DNA of 64,000 nucleotides, taken from positions 852,001 through 916,000 of the forward strand of contig NZ_CP051461.1 in the NCBI RefSeq assembly GCF_012584515.1, read 5' to 3'. Shown one piece after another: positions 33,952 through 47,219 of this stretch (the first letter of the stretch is position 1; each line of letters begins with the position of its first letter). The notes under the pieces are model-generated. The model saw only the letters and a program-made list of their open reading frames with translations. It was not told where the DNA came from and ran no database searches. Position numbers and translations under genes: made by a program. The DNA comes from Polaromonas vacuolata (GTDB lineage: Bacteria; Pseudomonadota; Gammaproteobacteria; Burkholderiales; Burkholderiaceae_C).

Positions 33952-34008
33952 ACCTCAGGATTTGCTAAGCAACGGCGACTATTAACGTGAATGTCTGATG
34001 TCTCTTTT
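33952..34008 (+). repeat. MITE-like palindromic repeat, copy A (right part)
   Basis: Right two-thirds of the repeat family: CCTCAGGATTTGCTAAGCAA, then GGCGACTATTAACGTG and a TGATGTCTCTTTT end. The left terminal repeat is missing; the IS3-type remnant takes its place. Confidence 0.7.
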
Positions 34009-34027
34009 CTTCCGTCTGAAGTGAAGA

Positions 34028-35077
34028 TCAGCGCAGCTCGTACCAGACGCCCCGACCACTGCCGTGCTGGTTCAGGTGTCCGCGCTCGACTAGCGAGCGA
34101 AAGTGCTGCTTGAGCGTGTTCCGGCTGGTGCTGGTTAACTTGATCGCCTCGCCAATCGTGACACGGCCATGTTCGCGGGCAAACTCGACAATCTGTAACG
34201 ACAGCTCAGGCAGCGCGGCCAGTACCAGTTTTTCACGCTCGACTTTCTTCTCCAAGCGCCGCACCTGCTCTGCCAATGCGCGTAGGAAAAACACCAGCCA
34301 AGGCTGCCAGTTCGGCGCATCCGTACGAATCGTGCCTTGGGTTTGTCGCAGGGCAAGGTAGTAGGCTTCCTTATTCATCTCGATCACGCTTTCCAGCGAG
34401 CTGTAGGGTACGTAGGCGTATCCAGCCTGCAAAAGCATCAGCGTAGTCAGCGCCCGGCTGATTCGGCCGTTACCGTCCTGAAACGGGTGAATTTCAAGGA
34501 ATACGACCACAAAGACCGCTGTAATCAGCAGTGGGTGACACAGTTTCAACTCACGTTGCTCAGACACCCAACGGATTAGCTCGGATATCAAACGCGGGGT
34601 ATCAAACGGCGAAGCAGTCTGGAACACGATGCCGACCTGCTCGCCGTGTTCGTTGAAAGCGGCCACGCTGTTGGTGTTCGTTTTGTACTGTCCGCGATGC
34701 CAGGCATCTTTCTTGCTTTAGCGCAGCAATACCTGATGCAGCTGCTTGACGTAGTTCTCGGTAAACGGGATATCGTGCCAAGCGCTAAAGATCAAATCCA
34801 TTACCTCGGCGTAACCCGCCACCTCTTGCTCGTCCCGAGTGTCGAAGGACTTGATCTCCAGATTTGCCAGCAGTTGCTCGACCTCGCGGTCTGAGAGTTT
34901 GCTGCCCTCAATGCGGGTCGATGATCCGATGCTCTCGATGGTGGCCACGCGGCGCAACGCCGATAAGCGCTCAGGTGCGAGCGTCCCTAGGGCACGCCAG
35001 GCTCCCTTGAACTCGTCAGTTTTGGTGACGAGGCTCAGGATTTCTTGGGTGATCTGGAGGGTTTCAGTGCGGAGCAT
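34028..35077 (-). pseudogene. Fic-family adenylyltransferase gene split by one stop codon
   Basis: The frame from the ATG at 35077 codes for 119 residues, stops at TAA (34718-34720), and continues in the same frame to 34028, 349 residues in all. The junction reads LHQVLLR-stop-SKKDAWHRGQY, where family members have tyrosine, so a single TAC/TAT to TAA change explains it. The Fic core HPFQDGNGR (residues 197-205) is intact, as is the class II inhibitory motif S-x-x-x-E-G (Ser53, Glu57, Gly58). A winged helix follows at the C-terminus. The second part could be translated alone from 34666 but would lack the inhibitory helix. Confidence 0.85.
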
Positions 35078-35168
35078 TAACCAATACTAAACCCATTTAC
35101 ACCCAATTAAACCCAATTTCAAGCCGCCAACCCGCAACATACCTATTTACACCCAACAAAGGACGAAG

Positions 35169-35260
35169 GGATATCCACGTTTAGCGCTCCTACCGTTAGA
35201 GCTGCGCAACTGATACCCAAGGAATTTTCTCGGTATCAGCGACTATTGGATGTCTCTTTT
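35169..35260 (+). repeat. MITE-like palindromic repeat, copy B (divergent)
   Basis: Starts ATATCCACGTTTAGCGCT and ends GCGACTATTGGATGTCTCTT; the centre differs from copies C and E but shares GCGCAACT and CAGCGACTATT. It lies between the fic gene and the helicase gene. Confidence 0.6.
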
Positions 35261-35363
35261 GTCCTCACGCCAAATCAAACTATCAGGAGACGCCGCCATG
35301 TCACGAAATTTTGGCCTACCCCGTCAAATTGGCACTGGCAATAACAACCCGCCGAACAATAGG

Positions 35364-37412
35364 TCAACTAGGCTCTTCGTCATCAGCGACTTCTGAAGCC
35401 GCGCAATAGCCACCGATTTGCTTCACGTAGGCCAGCAAATCCTTGTAAAACGCATTAGCGCTGAGCGTGGACGAGTCGCCGACCAGTAGCAGCTTGCGCC
35501 TGGCGCGGGTCATACCCACGTTCATGCGGCGGATGTCTGAAAGAAAGCCGATATCGCCGTGTTGGTTGCTTCGCGTCAGCGAAATCGCGATGACGTCACG
35601 CTCCTGGCCTTGAAATGAATCAACGGTGCCCACGCTAAGCGTGCGGTCTTGCAGCAAGCTGTTGAGCGCAGAGGACTCTTCAATGGCGTCCTTCAAATAG
35701 TTGATTTGGGCGCGGTAGGGGGCGATTACGCCGATAGTGAGCGGTTTTTGTGCGTGCTCGTGCTCGGTCGACTCGCGAGGTTCTAAACGCGCAAGGAGCT
35801 GAGACAGGCGCTTGAGCAGCAAATCCGCTTCTTCGGGATTGGCCGTAGAACGGCTTTCGTGGATGGTTGTTTCGAGGAAGCCCAAACCCGCTGTGTCCAG
35901 AAATTCCACCGGCAGGTCGGGCGCGAAGCGCTGGTCGTAGGCGGCTAGGCCAGCGTGCTTCACGCTTTGATGCGCTTCTAATTGGCCGCTATAGAACTGC
36001 TGAGAGCTAAACGCCATGATGTGCTCGTGCATGCGGTACTGCACGGTGAGTGTGCGGGCCGTGGTGGGTTGCCGCTTGATGCACTTTTCGAACAGTGTTT
36101 CGCGCAGGCCTTCGCGGGCCGCTTTCTCGCTTTTAACGGTGGGCGGCAGCTGGTGGTGATCGCCCACCAAAACGACGCGCTCGCCCTTGGTAATCGGAAT
36201 CCAGCAGCCTGGCTCCAAAGCCTGTGCGGCTTCGTCGATGAAAACGGTATCAAAAGTCAGGTGGCGGATGTCCCGGTTGTTTGCGCCCACCAGCGTGCCG
36301 GTGATGACCTGTACCGATTCGAGTACGTCCTCGGTGATGAAGCGCTCCAAATCGTTGGCGGCCTGAATGAGCATCCGGGCTTCTTCCTTCATCAGCTGGC
36401 GATGCTGCCGCTCCTCGAAGCCAAATTTGCGGATGCGGTCGCTGGCACGGTCGTTGGCTGTATTTCGCAGCTGCGTGGCAGTCTGGCGCATGGCGTGCAT
36501 TTTGCTGTAGCTCGGGTGGGCCATTAACTGTGCATCAAGGGTGTGCTGGAGCAGCAGGTCCGACACACGGCTGGGATTGCCCATGCGGATGACCTTAACG
36601 CCGCGCTCAGCCAGTTTTTCGGTCAGAAGATCCACGGCCGTGTTCGAGGGTGCGCACACCAGCACGCGTCGCTCACGCCGGGTGGTTTCCAAGATGGCCT
36701 GCACCAGCGTGGTGGTTTTGCCGGTACCAGGCGGGCCGTGGATGATGGCGACGTCTTGGGCGGTAATCACATGGCGCACGGCCACCAGCTGCGACTCGTT
36801 GAGTGTGCTGGGGTAGAACAGGTCGTCGGCTTTAGGCTCACGAAAGCGAGCTTGCCGGGCCCCCAGCAGCACGTCGCGCAATTGGGCCAGCCGGTCGCCA
36901 CGAGCGCGCATCACTTCCCTCAGGGCGTTGTCCATGCTGCGGTAGCTGACCTCGTCGAAGGTGAGGTCGATGCCGAGCTTGCCACCGCCCAGATTGCCGC
37001 CGTTAAGTACCCAGTCGGGAAGCTCTTCTTTGCTGGTGGTCAGCTGTAGCTTGTTGTGCTGCAAGCTGGTGATCACGCCATTGAGCGTGGGCGCCTCTAG
37101 GGAGGCGTGACCCGGCAGATTGACAAACAGTGAAGCATTGCGGCCCACCTGAAACAAGTGCAAACGCTGCTGGCCAGGAGCGCGTTCTAGTTCCAGTACC
37201 ACTTTGCCGCCAAAACCGATGTCTTCTTTAGTGATGGTGATGGGGTACCAAGCCAGACCACGCCGCTGGCGCTCCTCAATGCTGGCTTTGGCGCTTTTGA
37301 GTTTGAACTGTGCGAGGTCTTCCTTTTGCTCAAGTTGCAACAAGGCTAGAACGTGGGCTAACTCTTTTTCAGCAGCGTAAGGATCGGTGGGGATAACGTC
37401 GAGGTCAGTCAA
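35364..37412 (-). CDS. Superfamily I helicase (IGHMBP2/DNA2-NAM7 type)
   Basis: ATP-dependent helicase of 682 residues. Motifs: Walker A GPPGTGKTTTL near residue 226, motif II IDEAAQALEP near 391, motif III VGDHHQLPP near 410, motif IV QYRMHEHIM near 455, motif V VDSFQGQERDVIAI near 600 and motif VI NVGMTRARRKLLLVGD near 630. The N-terminal 200 residues form the IGHMBP2-like beta-barrel/stalk region. The start is a TTG at 37412 without clear ribosome site, so the N-terminus is uncertain. It is bracketed by two inverted IS3-type ends. Bacterial relatives act in RNA/DNA processing or in defence islands; the role here is not known. Confidence 0.85.
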   Translation of the reverse strand: MTDLDVIPTDPYAAEKELAHVLALLQLEQKEDLAQFKLKSAKASIEERQRRGLAWYPITITKEDIGFGGKVVLELERAPGQQRLHLFQVGRNASLFVNLPGHASLEAPTLNGVITSLQHNKLQLTTSKEELPDWVLNGGNLGGGKLGIDLTFDEVSYRSMDNALREVMRARGDRLAQLRDVLLGARQARFREPKADDLFYPSTLNESQLVAVRHVITAQDVAIIHGPPGTGKTTTLVQAILETTRRERRVLVCAPSNTAVDLLTEKLAERGVKVIRMGNPSRVSDLLLQHTLDAQLMAHPSYSKMHAMRQTATQLRNTANDRASDRIRKFGFEERQHRQLMKEEARMLIQAANDLERFITEDVLESVQVITGTLVGANNRDIRHLTFDTVFIDEAAQALEPGCWIPITKGERVVLVGDHHQLPPTVKSEKAAREGLRETLFEKCIKRQPTTARTLTVQYRMHEHIMAFSSQQFYSGQLEAHQSVKHAGLAAYDQRFAPDLPVEFLDTAGLGFLETTIHESRSTANPEEADLLLKRLSQLLARLEPRESTEHEHAQKPLTIGVIAPYRAQINYLKDAIEESSALNSLLQDRTLSVGTVDSFQGQERDVIAISLTRSNQHGDIGFLSDIRRMNVGMTRARRKLLLVGDSSTLSANAFYKDLLAYVKQIGGYCAASEVADDEEPS

Positions 37413-37607
37413 AAGAACAGAGATTTAGCCAGCTTAAATTTCTAACCGTCCGTTCGGATTGAGTTAGTTGAAAGCTACCGGGTGATTGAAAAATGTCAAA
37501 TGGATTTTGCCCCCTAGCCTCGGCTGCAGGTCTTGGCGTCTGCCAATCCCCTGACACATCCAATGACTTGATATGAAAAAAAAATAGGCTATGACGCGGT
37601 AAGAAGC

Positions 37608-37682
37608 TGAGGCCACTTAACTTTGAAATCTGTATTTCCAATCTTTAGAGGACTCTGCTGTCCATTAATTTGACTAGGTCCA
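37608..37682 (+). mobile_element. IS3-type element end, inverted relative to the first
   Basis: The same transposase 3' end and tip as at 33821-33950, now on the plus strand: CCACTTAACTTTGAA, CTTTAGAGGACTCTGCTG and the tip ending at 37682. One base is missing in GAAATCTG relative to the first copy, so the frame is broken. Together the two copies bracket fic and the helicase. Confidence 0.75.
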
Positions 37683-37868
37683 AACGTTCAATTGAATTCA
37701 GAGCGCAAGCACTAAATAAAGCCCGTTAGCTCGGTAAACAAACGCTAAAAACGGTAGCTGCCAAACTCAATATGTCTTTAGACACGCGCAAAGAAGTTCT
37801 GTCGTAGCAAGACTAAAATTAATTTTTTTGATTAATACGACTTGAAATCGCCCTCGGAGACTTTCGGA

Positions 37869-38096
37869 ATGATGGAATGGATTCCTATCGTATTTATTAC
37901 GTTCAAGGTTCTTGTGTTGAGCATAGGTATGTTCTTTGCTGTCAGGTGGCATTACAACCAAGGTGGCAGGAAGATGGATAAGCTTGCGGTACTGCGTGCG
38001 ACTGGCAAAGTGGCCGCTCTCTTCGTTCTAGCGCTCTTGACTCTGGGACTCCTGTCTTACTTCGTTGTTAGGAAGCTCGGTTTAGAAATGTATTAA
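37869..38096 (+). CDS. Small two-helix membrane protein, unknown function
   Basis: A 75-residue protein from the ATG at 37869 (GGAG at 37856-37859). Two hydrophobic helices, about 5-27 and 48-68, flank a charged loop (RWHYNQGGRKMDKLAVLRA). An in-frame ATG at 37842 would add nine residues but has no ribosome site. I do not recognise a family. It stands alone between the IS3-type end and a gene-poor stretch. Confidence 0.5.
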   Translation: MMEWIPIVFITFKVLVLSIGMFFAVRWHYNQGGRKMDKLAVLRATGKVAALFVLALLTLGLLSYFVVRKLGLEMY

Positions 38097-38422
38097 TCTT
38101 TCCATGGCGGCAAAAAACAGTCGATTGGTTTCCAGTCATGCGACAACCACTTCCCGATACGGTCATAAAGTATTTGCGACAGGTGGGTGCAGGCGGTTAA
38201 CTAGCGGTGTTGTTGCGCCAGCTTGTATTGTGCGGGTCTCCAAAAGTATGTCTACTTTTGCAAGCATTTTCTGCACAGCGGTCATCGCGCCTAAGGTCAA
38301 ATGAAATATTGTCGAACCAAGAAAAAATCCTGAGTCAGCAAGATTATTGAGCTGTAGTTTTATTAATTCATTGTCAGTCGGGACATGTAGATGAGCATCT
38401 TTTTGCGCATCAAGAATCACTT
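38097..38422. other. Intergenic region, nothing convincing
   Basis: About 325 bases between the small membrane protein and the end of the DMT transporter gene. A minus-strand open frame (38163-38480) overlaps the transporter's end and has no recognised product. No clear hairpin with a T run was seen. Confidence 0.4.
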
Positions 38423-39346
38423 TCAACGTTTGACCAAAGCACGCTTTGACACGACGACAAATGTGATAACCGCTATGCAAATAAATAGCGCGAGTGGGTC
38501 AAAAGTCTCGCCCATCAAAATAATCGAATAGCTGTAGGTAAAAAATGGCTGCAGGAATTGCAGCTGGCTAATGCGTTGAATACCGCCCAGAGCAAGGGCA
38601 CGATTCCAAGAAAAAAATGCGAGCAGTGAGTTCACAAATGCAAGAAACGCCAAAGCACCCCACTGCACCGCACCAAAGCCGGAAAAATCCGCCACATTAA
38701 AGTTCAGCAACGCGAGTGGTAACAACACAGGTAAATTCAATACCAGCGCCCAGCACATGACTTCCCATCCTTTCATTTCCTTAGACAAGGCACCACCTTG
38801 GGCGTACCCGTAACCAGCCAACACCACTGCACCTAGCAATGCAAGATCGCCGAGATAGATACCACCACCCATGTCACTGCGTATTGCTGCAAACACCGCT
38901 ACAGCTACGAAGCCTGCAATTGAAGCCAGCCAAAAAAGTAGAGGCGGGCGATCCTTGGTGATCAAAGTTCCGAAGATCGCAGTTGCTAACGGAAGAGCTG
39001 CCAATACTGCCCCGCCATGACCGACCGGCACGTGCTGCATGCCGACGGCAGTGAGGATAGGGAATCCATAAACGACGCCTAGCGACATGAGCAAGAGACG
39101 CTTAATTTGTGAGACGTTGGGACACGCTGAGCGGGTGAAGTACAAAATAGGCAGTGCAGCAAGTGCCGCCAACATGGACCGAAACAGTCCGATCTGCATC
39201 GCGCTCAAATGTCCTGCAAGAATCTTTGCGCAGGGCAACGTCAAAGCGAACGCAGCAACAGACATCGCACCTAAGAGGTAAGCTTCCACTTCAACAGAGG
39301 CCGCTGGACGTAGCTGCAATTGAGAAACAGGCTTCATTTGGCTCAT
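38423..39346 (-). CDS. DMT-superfamily (EamA) transporter
   Basis: Inner-membrane protein of 307 residues with about ten hydrophobic helices in two EamA repeats (about 25-155 and 165-300). Typical features are FRSMLAALAALPILY in repeat one and SQLQFLQPFFTYSYSIILMGE near 270, the conserved end of the second repeat. Such proteins export metabolites or amino acids; the substrate cannot be told. It stands alone, with repeat-rich DNA upstream. Confidence 0.85.
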   Translation of the reverse strand: MSQMKPVSQLQLRPAASVEVEAYLLGAMSVAAFALTLPCAKILAGHLSAMQIGLFRSMLAALAALPILYFTRSACPNVSQIKRLLLMSLGVVYGFPILTAVGMQHVPVGHGGAVLAALPLATAIFGTLITKDRPPLLFWLASIAGFVAVAVFAAIRSDMGGGIYLGDLALLGAVVLAGYGYAQGGALSKEMKGWEVMCWALVLNLPVLLPLALLNFNVADFSGFGAVQWGALAFLAFVNSLLAFFSWNRALALGGIQRISQLQFLQPFFTYSYSIILMGETFDPLALFICIAVITFVVVSKRALVKR

Positions 39347-39440
39347 GGTGTTTGTCTTGATAATAATTAATAGTGATTTGACTAACGACCCTAACCCGGA
39401 GCGTTAAATGTCAGAGCTGATTGTGATCAAAAAAGATAAA

Positions 39441-39504
39441 AAAAGGGACAGCTACGTTAGCGATCTCAGTTGCGCAGCGCTAAATGTGGATGTCTATGGA
39501 TGTC
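39441..39504 (-). repeat. MITE-like palindromic repeat, copy F (reverse orientation)
   Basis: On the minus strand GACATCCACATTTAGCGC is followed by TGCGCAACTGAGA, matching the left half of copies B and E. The other side ends GCTAACGTAGCTGTCCC. It abuts an IS3-type tip. Confidence 0.6.
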
Positions 39505-39505
39505 C

Positions 39506-39540
39506 GAGGACTCTAATGTCCATTAAGTTGGCAATGTCCA
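39506..39540 (+). mobile_element. IS3-type element tip, short remnant
   Basis: GAGGACTCTAATGTCCATTA and the bases to 39540 match the last 35 bases of the element ends at 37682 and 33821 with a few changes. It truncates the cupin gene to its right. Confidence 0.65.
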
Positions 39541-39728
39541 GTATGACGCAGAGCCGAAACTGAATTTAGGGTTAGGCGCGTGAGATTCACGCCGAAGTTT
39601 GCGCGGCCGAAAACGTCACAAGGCTGGCTTGTCGTTCGCCCTAGCAACGGTTCGGGATGCACTGACGTCTTGCTTCTCGGGGGTACTTCAGCAGCGACTG
39701 CGATGACTGGAATTTTCTTTTTCGACAT
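39541..39728 (-). pseudogene. N-terminal fragment of a cupin-domain protein
   Basis: From the ATG at 39728 the frame reads MSKKKIPVIAVAAEVPPRSK and then FGRANFGVNLTRL and SALRH, the N-terminus of small single-cupin proteins in which metal-binding histidines would follow. After SALRHT the sequence is IS3-type tip, and the frame stops soon after (39513). About 60 of the expected 140-160 residues remain, so it is a remnant. Identification rests on general resemblance to that family's N-terminus. Confidence 0.6.
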
Positions 39729-39902
39729 AAGACTCGCAACAGAAATTACTATTGGCTAACCCTTATGTCAAGCCGCAGGCCATAGTTTCTTGCTGTCGGT
39801 CGGCTCAAACCGCTGGTAATACATCAGCTCCAAGGCTCAATAGAAAAGTGATGCTTTGGCGGCCGGATTCTTAAAGTTTTGCCGTCCGAGGTTATGCATT
39901 TC

Positions 39903-40514
39903 TTACTCGCATATCTTAAAAATCGGTAATCGGACGTTATCACCAACCGTGGCGATATCGATATGTCTATAGCGGCCAGAACCGTGTTCTTCAGCAAACA
40001 ATGAGTCGTGTGATTTTGGTAGCACTAATTTGCGATTGTCAAAGGTGAGAACAACATTGAAACGGTTGAGAGTGTTCTTTTTTACTTTCCCAAAGTGGAA
40101 GTGATATCCGTAGCTGTGGTTTTCAGCTTTGTCTACTCCGTAGGTTGAACTGGCTACGGAAATGAACTTAAGGATATTTTGCACCTCCATCGAATCCACC
40201 AATTTTCTGTGGTGCATCAGGGCTAAGGCATCATCGTAGACGGGAATAATTTTACATTCCTCTAGGTACGTTAGCCACTCCCAGCGGGAGGAGTCACTCT
40301 CATCATATATAGGTTGTCCTTCCAGCTCAAGTTCCGCCAAAATTCTGTCGAAGCGGAGTAGGCGTGCATGAATAGTTTCGATTTCTCTCGTTCGCGCTTC
40401 TAATCCGGAGCTCAATCGTTGCCTTCGCTTGAGCCTACTGAAGATAATCGGATGGACTGTTTCTTCCAGATAGTCAAGAACGGCCAGCGTTTCCATATTA
40501 GCAATCTCGCGCAT
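39903..40514 (-). CDS. Hypothetical protein, unrecognised
   Basis: A 203-residue soluble protein from the ATG at 40514, with an excellent AAGGAG ribosome site 6-8 bases upstream, so it is very likely translated. The N-terminal half is helical and charged (FSRLKRRQRLSSGLEARTRE), the C-terminal half looks beta-rich with YGYHFHFGKVKKNTLNRF and VVLTFDNRKLVLPKS. No signal peptide or membrane helix. I recognise no family. It is preceded about 90 bases upstream by another unrecognised gene on the same strand, so the two may form a unit. Confidence 0.6.
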   Translation of the reverse strand: MREIANMETLAVLDYLEETVHPIIFSRLKRRQRLSSGLEARTREIETIHARLLRFDRILAELELEGQPIYDESDSSRWEWLTYLEECKIIPVYDDALALMHHRKLVDSMEVQNILKFISVASSTYGVDKAENHSYGYHFHFGKVKKNTLNRFNVVLTFDNRKLVLPKSHDSLFAEEHGSGRYRHIDIATVGDNVRLPIFKICE

Positions 40515-40603
40515 AAATCTCCTTGTGTCTAACGTAGAGGTGAGGGGGCGGCCAGAGCGTGAAGCGCAGAGGGTAGCTAGCAGGTTCCCTTTAGAGCGCC
40601 ATG

Positions 40604-41356
40604 TTAAACCTTGGTTGCATTGGCGATGGCATTGGCTTCTGATATTGCAGCAAGCAACTGCGGTTGGTGCTGGAACTTTGTAAGGATGCCTTCGTTGTAT
40701 GAGCTTACTTGCTTTTGCAAGAGTGTAGAAGCTTCTGCTGGGGTGGCTGCGCCAGTCGACAGTAAAGCTGAGCGGAGAATTTTTGCGTGCTCAAAGAACT
40801 TAGTTACAGAAAGCCACTGGTCATGAATGCTCTCAGGAGTTACCCATGTTGCAGTCTTCTCCTCGAAGACGATTGTCCACAGGAATACAACACCGTGGAG
40901 GTGCGAGAGATATTTAAGAAATAGCGAGTATGTTGGAACCGTCTCTCTGGGAAGCTTTGAAAGTTGTTCGGCGGACAACTTCGACTCGCTCAACGCTTCC
41001 AATTGAGATTTCAGGAACATCGGAACTATTGATAGCCCCGGTACTTCCTCAACCTTTTCTGGGGTCAGCTTCTGAATTTCCTTTGCGAGGATGACGCTTA
41101 TCTTGTGCGATGGCTCAAATGTACCGTCTTTTGCAGCGAGTTCTTTCACCATGTCTTCAGTCACGTAGACCTTAATGAAGGAGCGAAGGACAACATCAAT
41201 GGCTACCAATTCTGAGATGCGGACAAAATGAACGTATGCCAATCGCTTTTCGGCATCTCTAAGGTTGCGACGATCCAGACTGGCGCGAATCCAATAGCTT
41301 AGGCCCGCCGAGATTAGCGCGCCGATAAGACCGGAGGTAAGCGCAATGTTTTGCAT
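40604..41356 (-). CDS. Hypothetical membrane-anchored protein, unrecognised
   Basis: A 250-residue protein with one N-terminal membrane segment (LTSGLIGALISAGLSYWI, residues 7-24) followed by RASLDRRNLRDAEKRLAY and a mostly helical cytoplasmic or periplasmic domain. The positive residues after the helix suggest the body is cytoplasmic. No enzyme motif was seen. The ribosome site is weak. It lies on the same strand about 90 bases before the other unrecognised gene and next to an integrase remnant, which suggests both are cargo. Confidence 0.55.
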   Translation of the reverse strand: MQNIALTSGLIGALISAGLSYWIRASLDRRNLRDAEKRLAYVHFVRISELVAIDVVLRSFIKVYVTEDMVKELAAKDGTFEPSHKISVILAKEIQKLTPEKVEEVPGLSIVPMFLKSQLEALSESKLSAEQLSKLPRETVPTYSLFLKYLSHLHGVVFLWTIVFEEKTATWVTPESIHDQWLSVTKFFEHAKILRSALLSTGAATPAEASTLLQKQVSSYNEGILTKFQHQPQLLAAISEANAIANATKV

Positions 41357-41519
41357 AGAGGTCTAAGGTAATTCGCACCGCAAGACTTGCGAATTAATCT
41401 GGCGGTTACTGTTCAATCTGGTCATAACTTCCTGATGAATGTGATTTGTCTATTAGGTTTGACTTGAATATGCTGTATTTAAATGCAGTTATGAATAAGT
41501 CATGAGATCCGGTATTCAA

Positions 41520-41786
41520 TCTTGTCGCTTTATCCGCCTTATGTATCAGATTCGCGAAAATGTACTTTTTTTACTATAGCATCAGTACCGAGAAGATGCA
41601 CCTGTACTGGGTGCGTTTTATATTATCTGGCACGTAAAAAGTAGGCAAATGCGATATCTGCGCGACATGGGACTACCTGAGGTAGAAGCCTTTCTGACGA
41701 TGCTAGCTACCGAGCTCTAGGTTTACACCTCCGCCCACAATCAAGCCTTAAGCGCATTGTTGTTCGTGGATCAAAATCAGGAATAG
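41520..41786 (+). pseudogene. Integron-integrase-like tyrosine recombinase remnant
   Basis: Broken frames encode YYSISTEKMHLYWVRF, then after a one-base frameshift near 41616 WHVKSRQMRYLRDMG, EVEAFLTMLATE, an in-frame stop (TAG 41717-41719), and SAHNQALSALLF. These blocks align in order with the N-terminal SAM-like domain of IntI/XerC recombinases. The catalytic C-terminal domain is missing; homology ends where MITE copy C begins at 41787. It is a dead fragment of a gene that once mobilised DNA here. Confidence 0.7.
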
Positions 41787-41872
41787 AAAGAGACATCCAC
41801 GTTCAGCACTGCACAACTATTTCCTCAGAATTTGCTCAGTAACGGCGACCATGAACGTGGAGGTGCCTTTTT
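41787..41872 (+). repeat. MITE-like palindromic repeat, copy C (complete)
   Basis: Begins AAAGAGACATCCACGTTC (41788 on), continues through TGCACAACTATTTCCTCAG and TTTGCTCAGTAACGGCGAC, and ends GAACGTGGAGGTGCCTTTT. The ends are inverted repeats. It interrupts or replaces the integrase remnant. Confidence 0.75.
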
Positions 41873-41942
41873 AGACCGATAGACACGGCGACAGCTGCGA
41901 TTAAGTTTCTTTGCAAACTGTAATCGCGCAAAATCTGCGTTC

Positions 41943-41982
41943 TGAATTCATCGCTATGACTATTAACGTGGATGCCCTTTTT
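41943..41982 (+). repeat. MITE-like palindromic repeat, copy D (right end only)
   Basis: GACTATTAACGTGGATGCCC followed by TTTTT matches the right terminal part of copies A, C and E. The left part cannot be recognised. It lies 60-100 bases upstream of the DUF1003 gene. Confidence 0.55.
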
Positions 41983-42043
41983 GTCCATAATTTTGTCCAT
42001 ACAGGCCGTCATAATCGATGAAACGTTTTGAGAGGCATATTCC

Positions 42044-42619
42044 ATGGCGCAAGATACCCCAGACAGCCGACCTCCTGTGAGCGCAACGCTTGGCGAGGTA
42101 GATCACTGGCGCTTTCACCGACCTCATGCGCATCTCTTTTCCACATTCGGCAACGACACACTTGCGCTCAAAGCTGAGGCTTTTGCAAGATTTTTTGGCA
42201 CACCATTATTTTTGGGTGCGCAGACGCTAATAGTTGTCGCATGGATTGGCATCAACGCCTTGGGATTCACGACCTTTGACGTTTACCCATTCATACTACT
42301 GAATCTGGCGTTCAGCTTGCAGGCTGCGTACGCTGCTCCTCTGATATTGTTGGCACAGACAAGACAGGCTGCACGTGACAAAGTTCACTCAGAAGCTGAT
42401 GCGCAACATCGGGAGGCACTGGCAATTGCCAACGAGCAGAGGCAGTCTGAGGCGGCGAAGAACACTGATCAGATATTGCAGTTGCTTGAACAAAATACCC
42501 GTCTTACAGAGGCAACGAAGCAACTGACAGAGCGAATTGAAGTCTTGACGGTAGAGATGCACAAGCACTTTTCCAACACGTTGACAGGGGCTGCTCCAGC
42601 GGTGGATTCAGTTGGATAG
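42044..42619 (+). CDS. DUF1003 membrane protein
   Basis: Protein of 191 residues. The DUF1003 core is AEAFARFFGTPLFLGAQTL near residue 45, followed by a helix, then FDVYPFILLNLAFSLQAAYA and APLILLAQTRQ near 100. Two membrane helices are predicted by eye. The C-terminal 75 residues are a charged coiled coil (LLEQNTRLTEATKQLTERIE). Function of the family is unknown. A terminator hairpin follows it, and MITE-like repeats flank it on both sides. Confidence 0.8.
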   Translation: MAQDTPDSRPPVSATLGEVDHWRFHRPHAHLFSTFGNDTLALKAEAFARFFGTPLFLGAQTLIVVAWIGINALGFTTFDVYPFILLNLAFSLQAAYAAPLILLAQTRQAARDKVHSEADAQHREALAIANEQRQSEAAKNTDQILQLLEQNTRLTEATKQLTERIEVLTVEMHKHFSNTLTGAAPAVDSVG

Positions 42620-42708
42620 CGTGTTTCGACTATTTGCGCTGGCCTAAAAGAGGGGAAGCTTTGCATGCGCCGCTTAACCTTTCTGAGCGGGTGCCAGTGA
42701 TGGCATTC

Positions 42709-42735
42709 AGCCCGCGTAACAGTGGGCTTTTTTTC
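42709..42735 (+). terminator. Intrinsic terminator after the DUF1003 gene
   Basis: AGCCCGC (42709-42715) pairs with GTGGGCT (42722-42728), with one G-T pair, over a 6-base loop, followed by seven T residues. Confidence 0.65.
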
Positions 42736-42869
42736 GACTGGACTTCAAGGCGATCTAGCCCAGCCTCACGGTTCAGGATCTCGTGCGTATGGACATTTTT
42801 TGGCCGACTTAGACATTCAAGGAATGCAAGGAATAAAAGGAACATCAGGAATATCGGAATAAAAAATAA

Positions 42870-42954
42870 AAAGAGACATCTACGTTTAGCAATGCGCAAC
42901 TATTGCCTCAGCATTTGCTAAGTAACGGCGACTATTAACGTGGATTTCCCTTTT
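42870..42954 (+). repeat. MITE-like palindromic repeat, copy E (complete)
   Basis: Begins AAAGAGACATCTACGTTTAG, continues AATGCGCAACTATTGCC and CATTTGCTAAGTAACGGCG, and ends ACTATTAACGTGGATTTCCC. It is about 80 percent identical by eye to copy C and lies upstream of the methyltransferase gene. Between the DUF1003 terminator and this repeat, and from it to 43063, no gene is seen. Confidence 0.75.
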
Positions 42955-45896: not shown

Positions 45897-47219
45897 CTGT
45901 CCGGTTAAAAGTCGAATAAATTCAACTGGTTAGCAAAGAGGGGTGGTTCTGTGGCCACCAAATCAGTCTGCAAGGCGCATGAAATATGGGTTTTCTCGAA
46001 TACAGAGACGGAAAGAATCTGTAGCAACGTGTACAGGGATGCATTGAGTTGAAGTTCCTTCTTAACAATGGCGATGAGCACGTAGGTGGAGACGGCGCAC
46101 CAGATTTGCGTCTTCACCGCGTTCTCGCTTGTGCCCAAGAATTTCTTGATTCGTAAGTGCTGCTTGATCCATTTAAAGAACAACTCCACCTGCCAACGGT
46201 TCTTTTCTTGTATAGCGCCGCGATGATCAGAGCCGGCAGGGTTGTGTTGTTGGTCAGAAAGATGAGTGTCTTGTCTGTTTCGGGGTCCTTGAATCGAATG
46301 CGCCGTAGGTGCTCAGGATAATGTTGGGAGCCGTAAAAATCGTTGAGTGCGATGGCTTGATCGCACACCACTCCTGTTGTTCTGTCCGTGTTGGCCGAGT
46401 ACATGCGCCTAGCGTTCATGTTGGTCTTGGCACGCGTTACAAAGAAAGCTCCTAACTGATGCATCCGATACAGACGCGCAAAGTCCAAGTAGCCACGATC
46501 CATCACGTAAAAAGCACCCACCTCAACGCTCAGGATATCGAGCACATTAACGTCGTGCATCTTGCCGTCACTGATGTGAATGAAAGCGGGAATCGCGCCG
46601 CGAAGATCCAGCAACGTGTGCAATTTGATGGCCGCCTTGGACGAGCGAAATGGTGCCCACTCGAACAGACTCAAGCACAGATCAATGGCTGTTGAATCCA
46701 ACGCATAGACCGTGTTTGTCAGACCCAACCCGAGGCCCTCGTCGCAGTAAAGCTTGCGCGCCCGGCAAAACAGCAAGGCTGCCAAATCGGACCAAATTCG
46801 CCAATCCCGAGCATCGTTGGCGTCGGCCAGTGTGGAGCGATGAACGGCATGGCGCAGGCCCATCGAATAGAGCTTGCTGGCGTTGGCGCCCAACGTCACC
46901 TCGATATCACGCAGACTCTCACGCCACGTTAACTGAGCAAACGCCATGACTCGAAATTGCTCGGCACAGCTCAGCCGACGCACGCCGGAATTGCCGCTGT
47001 AGCTATCCACGATGCGCGTAAAACTCGTCCAAGGCACGAACTCCATGAGTTGTGCAAACAGCGTCTTGCCGACATTCATCGCGAACCTTTCGGAGTATTA
47101 ACTCCAGAAAGGTAGCTAAAAGTGAAGAAACAAGATTCAAATCGGCACCAAACAAAATCGAACGCTAGGCCGCACCAGCATTGGGTTTCGGTGATTTCAC
47201 CATGCGTTTAACCGGACAG
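45897..47219 (-). mobile_element. IS4-type insertion sequence (degenerate)
   Basis: The ends are 13-bp perfect inverted repeats: CTGTCCGGTTAAA (45897-45909) and TTTAACCGGACAG (47207-47219), 1323 bp in all. Similarity continues outwards as CACTACTG and CAGCAGTG, so the repeats may be about 18 bp with one mismatch. No target-site duplication can be seen at the edges, which suggests a later deletion or recombination. Confidence 0.85.
45905..47079 (-). pseudogene. IS4-family transposase, frameshifted in the YREK motif
   Basis: DDE transposase. The first part (47079 to about 46205) has the first Asp in YALDSTAIDLCLSLFEWAPF and the second in FYVMDRGYLDFARLY. The third part (VELFFKWIKQHLRIKKFLG) is in another frame and runs to 45905. 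At the junction the DNA reads TACAAGAAAAGAACCGTTGG, where family members read YKNRW; removing AAAAG restores the frame and the exact Y-x2-R-x3-E-x6-K spacing. A programmed slip would leave two extra residues between Y and R, so a 5-base insertion, hence an inactive gene, is the better reading. Confidence 0.85.

Follow-up and report, generated by a model that had tools for sequence, protein, structure and literature searches.

Miniature repeats with inverted ends in Polaromonas vacuolata and their probable link to a subclass 2.3 HUH transposase

Two described kinds of system come closest to the repeats reported here. In TIRYT/TIRtron systems, tyrosine transposase genes are flanked by terminal inverted repeats (TIRs), and in some genomes the same repeats also stand singly, as dimers or in groups (Di Nocera et al. 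2013, PMC3733652). In REPIN/RAYT systems, two inverted conserved ends enclose a spacer and the unit can fold as a single strand (Bertels and Rainey 2011, PMC3116915). A survey of TnpAY1 transposases (Quentin et al. 2018, PMC6006769) lists in its Table 1 a subclass 2.3 with the HuH motif NHYH, the W motif WE and the Y motif YVDLNP, and gives it a median length of 325 residues and an occurrence chiefly in Chromatiales and Alteromonadales. For subclasses 2.1 and 2.3, the survey states that neither automatic nor manual search found repetitive extragenic palindrome (REP)-like sequences, and in its classification the 26 TIRYT examples fall into subclasses 2.1 (20), 2.2 (4) and 2.5 (2), with none in 2.3. 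Here, short repeats with inverted ends are described from a 64,000-nucleotide stretch of Polaromonas vacuolata (NZ_CP051461.1, positions 852001-916000, hereafter the window) and from the rest of its chromosome, which is one contig of 3,837,686 bases; positions not marked as window positions are those of the chromosome. These repeats are probably non-autonomous miniature elements of the REPIN/TIR type that belong to a subclass 2.3 HUH transposase encoded at 496679-497833, with the end motif AAAAGRGACATCCACGTT (core RGACAYCCAC) as its probable cis sequence. Apparently new are the motif, its connection with subclass 2.3 and the miniature families in this genome; the general kind (TIRYT/TIRtron, REPIN/RAYT) is known.

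The 17-mer end AAAGAGACATCCACGTT matches the window eight times at up to three mismatches, compared with 0.11 matches expected, which bears out the proposal of an earlier note, made from the window alone, that a real repeat family is present; one of the eight (58760) falls outside the repeat region and represents no element. Family A, of 84 bp, has ends inverted to each other and an interior common to its copies, of which 11, whether whole, cut or rearranged, were aligned: five in the window (Table 1) and six at 1553-1565 kb. The latter came to light when the consensus was searched against the whole genome, as the earlier note had suggested. Lying 0.66 Mb away, they overturn its statement that the repeats are confined to the accessory region of the window, and local tandem duplication with no copies elsewhere is not what was found. 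Among the six copies listed at that time, five belong to family A and the sixth (window 41943-41982) is the right end of a different family, B; moreover, three of the five (window 33952-34008, 35164-35260 and 39441-39505) are the partial, interrupted and rearranged copies of Table 1. The perfect 17-base inverted repeat that had been deduced exists in the consensus and not in individual copies.

Table 1. Repeat copies and the neighbouring integrase remnant in the window
Feature	Window position	Strand	Remarks
Family A, whole	41786-41871	+	Inverted end motifs at 41786-41803 and 41854-41871; 89% identical to the A consensus over 84 bp (41787-41870, own-genome consensus search)
Family A, whole	42869-42954	+	Nearest to the consensus, 94% over 84 bp (42870-42953, same search)
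Family A with internal insertion	35164-35260	+	Between the fic-like gene and a helicase gene
Right half of a family A copy plus an additional truncated right end	33953-34008	+	After an IS3-family remnant
Family A, inverted and rearranged	39441-39505	-	Adjoins an IS3-type end
Family B, left part missing	41873-41983	+	Immediately to the right of the A copy at 41786-41871; matched by BLAST from 41879 on
IntI (integron integrase) pseudogene, residues 1-78	41538-41768	+	Context, not part of an element

Fuller copies of family B, which also has inverted ends and reaches up to 188 bp, are present at 1058995, 1059737 and 1061898. Family C is represented by a 133-bp element at 2404576-2404708, and a second C start lies at 2408217. 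Where a single undescribed family had been proposed, at least three are found, of a general kind described in 2013 (PMC3733652); only their ends were seen to be common to A, B and C, and their interiors are unrelated. The motif shared by all three families and by lone ends is AAAAGRGACATCCACGTT, and in this genome the end reads AGGGACAT or AGAGACAT. At up to three mismatches the motif has 33 sites on the 3.84-Mb chromosome, compared with five for a backward-read control. All 33 sites are located in eight places (74, 118, 498, 887-895 (the window), 1059-1062, 1133-1137, 1553-1565 and 2404-2408 kb), and the sequence within 250 bp of them makes up 0.31% of the chromosome. Some ends are paired as inverted dimers, some stand alone and others form tandem groups. 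Because GTCC, as judged by eye, often stands directly after the right end, the true element end may sit a few bases further out.

A scan of the genes near these clusters revealed a gene at 496679-497833 on the minus strand, which encodes a 385-residue HUH/Y1 (REP-type) transposase. Its matches to PF01797 (Y1_Tnp; E 0.002) and to NCBIfam REP_Tyr_transpos (E 1.3e-11, 44.6 bits against a cut-off of 80) are both below cut-off, and Y1_Tnp is matched at E <= 0.01 by 18 of 28 aligned relatives. Rhodoferax sp. is given as a source of close relatives of the protein. The protein contains the motifs SNHYH, FWEGR and YVDLNP, with NHYH at residues 70-73, WE at 164-165 and YVDLNP at 185-190. All three of the latter are invariant in the 28-sequence alignment, and in a 35-sequence alignment only the third residue of the HuH motif varies (NHLH at locus L137, NHTH at L141 and L148). 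Judged by motifs, length and alignment, this predicted protein carries the motif signature of subclass 2.3. Two end motifs stand upstream of the gene on the gene strand, with cores at -121 and -224; one of them, AAAAGAGACATCCACGTTAGTGAG, is identical at 23 of 24 positions to the left end of element C. A mover encoded elsewhere, possibly of RAYT type, had been anticipated in the earlier note, and such a gene has now been found, with relatives that share the core at a near-fixed distance. The other Y1_Tnp match of this genome at E <= 1 (3172246-3172566) has no core motif within 1 kb. No relatives of the transposase were present in the viral and phage sequences searched, and among solved structures there were only two weak, unrelated matches.

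A connection between motif and gene, recurring in another order, was also found beside relatives of the transposase. Sixteen loci were compared, three from the genus (the present genome, G036 and G020) and the best place in each of 13 plasmid-collection records whose relatives are 40-45% identical, one of these records (Aeromonas) being of chromosome size. At 11 of the 16 loci, GACAYCCA stands on the gene strand in the 300 bp preceding the gene, compared with 13 of 646 control windows (Fisher 4e-14); at none of the 16 does it stand there on the opposite strand. In 10 of the 11 loci that have it, the nearest upstream core lies at -69 to -80. It was seen in all three loci of the genus, in six of seven from Pseudoalteromonas and in the single loci from Shewanella and Aeromonas, and it was not seen in the single loci from Saccharobesus, Catenovulum, Vibrio and Photobacterium. 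A count of 8-mers made without any preset motif ranked GACACCCA first (10 of 16 loci, compared with 11 of 731 controls). In the Catenovulum and Photobacterium loci (L138 and L142), GACAGGCA stands near -150 in place of GACAYCCA and is perhaps a diverged form of the motif. On the downstream side, an inverted core lies within 400 bp at six loci (L136, L141, L144, L145, L147 and L148) and a direct copy at one (G036); four loci (L141, L145, L147 and L148) have both an upstream core and an inverted downstream core, and L139, where a pair of inverted copies directly follows an IS30 gene, is possibly a seventh downstream case. Downstream ends such as TTAATAGTGGTGGGTGTCACTT resemble the right end of family A, TTAACGTGGATGTCCCTTTT.

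That the core precedes the gene at a nearly constant distance and on one strand at 10 loci would also be expected if the motif served the Y1 gene as an operator or promoter element and the other copies were by-products of recombination between islands. Inverted copies downstream of six of the 16 genes, inverted doublets with unrelated interiors in two lineages and tandem copies would all be unexpected on that account, which we regard as quite improbable.

Within the genus, the gene is present in four of 87 genomes including the present one (E <= 1e-20). The core GGACACCCAC is found at -74 in G036 and at -69 in G020, and the fourth copy (G407) starts at a contig end, so that its upstream side is unreadable. 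The only end motif that G036 showed at two mismatches lies on the contig of the gene, 2.7 kb from it. As observed by eye upstream of the Y1 gene, a HicB-like gene is enclosed by two motif copies in G036 (locus L131, contig C198, around 16119), and HigBA-like genes are present in G020.

A second lineage with miniature doublets is provided by Pseudoalteromonas piscicida (NZ_CP074588.1), in which 14 core sites were found in the 49 kb around the gene (backward control, 1), compared with 2, 0 and 3 in three other 50-kb stretches (backward controls 1, 1 and 2). Two inverted core doublets, of 89 bp and 44 bp, are present, and the shorter one is preceded at 26 bp by an additional left end in tandem, an arrangement also seen in the pair at 1558440/1558468 in P. 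vacuolata. In P. shioyasakiensis, six tandem core copies lie upstream of the gene and two inverted copies downstream.

Several observations weigh against assigning the repeats to this transposase. The 16 loci are related to one another (seven from Pseudoalteromonas, three from the genus), and five of them lack an upstream core. The genome with the closest homologue in the genus (G407, 80%) showed no end motif at up to four mismatches in 225 kb, about 6% of its sequence, and in G036 a sample of 222 kb taken at a distance from the gene contains no core site (control, 2). In 49 kb of P. shioyasakiensis, the sites lie mainly beside the gene and no inverted doublet shorter than 250 bp was found. 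At the P. vacuolata gene itself, the 400 bp downstream contain no core copy, inverted or direct, and nothing of A, B or C aligns downstream; seven of the eight end-motif clusters are far from the gene. Neither an empty site nor a cut position was recovered. Moreover, conservation to the consensus is 0.931 for lone ends (n=12) and 0.861 for doublet ends (n=20), the reverse of what would be expected of REPINs, in a comparison that is biased by the selection of lone ends with a mismatch cut-off.

Compared with TIRYT/TIRtron systems as described in PMC3733652, the present system is alike in its HUH/Y1 gene, in repeats beside the gene that have no relation to GTAG REPs and are in some cases similarly distant from it, and in that these repeats belong to a family present as singles, dimers and groups. 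It differs in the shared motif, which there is GGGGWSAS (in some TIRYTs, not as a requirement) and here RGACAYCCAC, and in that its own gene has both motif copies upstream and none inverted downstream; inverted downstream copies do occur among the relatives. The likeness to REPIN/RAYT systems, as set out in PMC3116915, lies in the two inverted conserved ends with a foldable spacer unit, in lone ends and tandem clusters, and in a RAYT-type gene near the same ends; the ends of the GI doublet are given there as 71 bp apart, and the elements here measure 84-188 bp overall. Unlike in that system, no GTAG-footed hairpin was recognised in the end, copies are few, spacers are unrelated between families and doublet ends did not appear more conserved than lone ones. 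The reverse strand of the core is GTGGRTGTCY; its GTGG is present in most copies and absent from the upstream copies of some relatives (L137, L139, L147 and L148). With the subclass 2.3 proteins surveyed in PMC6006769 the transposase shares the three motifs, a long protein with extra domains and members in Alteromonadales, whereas the survey lists no REP-like sequences for them and a conserved cis motif with miniature elements is found here.

The elements were also sought outside this genome. None of 298 other genomes of the same family contains the exact 17-mer AAAGGGACATCCACGTT, and a search of 100 relatives with the A consensus yielded nothing at E <= 0.001. At two mismatches, the end motif has one match each in 10 of 60 other genomes of the genus, compared with 26 for the backward control there; in a wide contig collection, the 18-mer matches 12 stretches from unrelated groups once each, with a chance estimate of 15. 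A blastn search of plasmids with one A copy gave no match, viral sequences gave a single 17-mer match, apparently within a coding region, and an Rfam scan of the sequence matched only transfer-messenger RNA. Since the 17-mer, consensus and end-motif searches elsewhere were empty or at chance level, the repeat elements are, judged by sequence comparison, particular to this genome among those searched. A literature search, mainly of titles and abstract openings and with few subscription papers covered, returned no description of this motif.

This distribution also bears on the possibility that the repeats are ordinary miniature inverted-repeat transposable elements (MITEs), that is, derivatives that arose by internal deletion from a DDE transposon, extinct or unsampled, with TIRs of 18 to 23 bp, the motif at the Y1 gene being one more insertion. 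The elements are short and non-coding like DDE-derived MITEs, their inverted ends are clear and their interiors unrelated, and transposase genes or remnants of the IS3, IS30 and IS4 types are also present in the clusters. On the other hand, no parent DDE element was seen among the searched sequences, and among the scanned genes near the clusters none of DDE type is enclosed by facing ends (the IS4-type gene at window 46114-47079 being considered without its own ends); copy flanks show no consistent target duplication by eye; the 17-mer is missing from the family genomes, and the wide contig collection yielded only scattered single matches; and the core that precedes Y1 genes of other genera at -69 to -80 would be left unexplained. 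An origin of this kind is therefore considered unlikely, and nothing was found to link the repeats to a DDE transposase, which the earlier note had named as another candidate mover. IS30 (1060077-1061182 and its copies) and the IS3 remnants were likewise rejected as movers, as their ends differ. The IS30-family copies (1060077-1061182, 2407103-2408207 and others) were probably recently active, because they are 99.5% identical between two places, and a further IS30 copy starts just inside a C element at ~2408260.

If the repeats are indeed elements of the subclass 2.3 enzyme, their mode of spread may be pictured from what is known of related proteins. We infer that the elements move. By analogy with HUH/Y1 biology, the enzyme would recognise the motif in single-stranded DNA and cut and join there, and the single-stranded ends would be joined elsewhere by the protein, as in the IS200/IS605 and RAYT literature. 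Preferred insertion at or just inside existing ends could produce clustering, tandem stubs and a bias towards one direction, and one-sided joining, or deletion beside an end, could produce cut-off genes.

The arrangement of the copies offers examples of each of these features. Tandem truncated ends, in which outer stubs stand beside a further end of the same direction, occur at 1061853/1061870/1061898, 1558440/1558468, 1135291-1135345 and 2404691-2404744. Thirteen of the 15 A and B copies run in the + direction (binomial 0.007), and all lie on the half of the chromosome with positive GC skew (8-kb samples, one of them slightly negative at 0.4 Mb); this directional bias is only suggestive, because copies in one cluster may be related. 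With regard to truncated neighbours, an AbiEii gene is cut after ~70 residues at a lone end at 1559810 (PF08843, E 5.8e-14, positions 2-57 of 238), a facing pair of ends ~1.4 kb apart (1558440-1559827) encloses AbiEi and the cut AbiEii, and three orphan Rhs modules at 1133-1137 kb start at lone ends. The family B copy in the window is broken off where the A copy at 41786-41871 has its right end, and an IS3-family element ends 2 bp before the A copy at 1562437. Simple insertion was rejected in both cases: the left flank of the A copy at window 41786 is not B, and the IS3 broken at 1562434 does not resume beyond the A copy.

When six A elements and one C element were folded as DNA, a check that the earlier note had proposed, five of the seven gave clearly better folds than shuffled sequences (z -2.67 to -3.15), and the other two reached -1.65 and -1.00. 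Together with the sequence GGGACATCCAC...GTGGATGTCCC followed by TTTT, this folding could be read as that of bidirectional transcription terminators, kept for a stem and a T-run. However, the A stem has one pair changed on both sides, compared with 2.3 in shuffles, and hence no excess of covariation, and many ends stand alone, so that a terminator function seems very improbable.

The integrase remnant that the earlier note had recognised beside family A is a real IntI pseudogene; its match ends ~17 bp short of the A copy at window 41786, where the note has a repeat abut it exactly. It belongs to a decayed chromosomal integron (window 41340-41785 and leftwards to ~34000), in which IntI carries a frameshift and stops and the main genes lie to the left, on the minus strand. 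One attC-like site was noted in it (window 40527-40609), and upstream of the IntI remnant stands CTGTATTTAAATGCAG, which we take to be a LexA-like box. Across the genus, an IntI match above the family cut-off is present in 13 of 87 genomes and is full length in nine of them. Given this remnant and the single genes that lie between copies, with the fic-like gene held tightly between two, the repeats might be gene-cassette recombination sites (integron attC or similar). The A consensus, however, has GTT first and AAC last, so that the order of the boxes is wrong and the RYYYAAC/GTTRRRY rule is not followed. Furthermore, an attC search of nine stretches of the genome returned no A copy, 11 integron loci of the genus lack the end motif at up to four mismatches, the attC-like sites listed in five of these loci differ, and no IntI match lies near the 1553-1565 kb cluster. 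The probability of a cassette-site origin is thus close to negligible.

Assignment of the repeats to the subclass 2.3 transposase would provide a candidate DNA substrate for an HUH subclass that had none in the 2018 survey, which makes the activity of this subclass directly testable. It also offers one mechanism for the gene truncations, orphan Rhs modules and defence genes found around short repeats in such islands. As a tentative generalization, somewhat more doubtful than not, subclass 2.3 might represent widespread TIR-type single-strand transposons of beta- and gammaproteobacteria, whose RGACAYCCAC motif seeds miniature doublets that hop beside one another, leave cut-off genes and tandem ends, and help to build and mark toxin and defence islands.

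Some further features of the islands were observed. The region at 1553-1565 kb is a defence-type island amid A copies, with a HamB-like helicase, AbiEi, the AbiEii cut at a lone end and a UvrD-like helicase. The orphan Rhs modules (1133-1139 kb) are accompanied by possible immunity genes, judged by position only. Flanking the island with B copies, the end of polA and the sequence following it are duplicated (48 and 176 bp, 81-90% identity; 1058.7-1059.0 and 1062.1-1062.3 kb), which resembles what an integrating element might leave. In the window, the fic-like gene (34028-35077) is divided into two reading frames, and a relative in G058 matches across the split.

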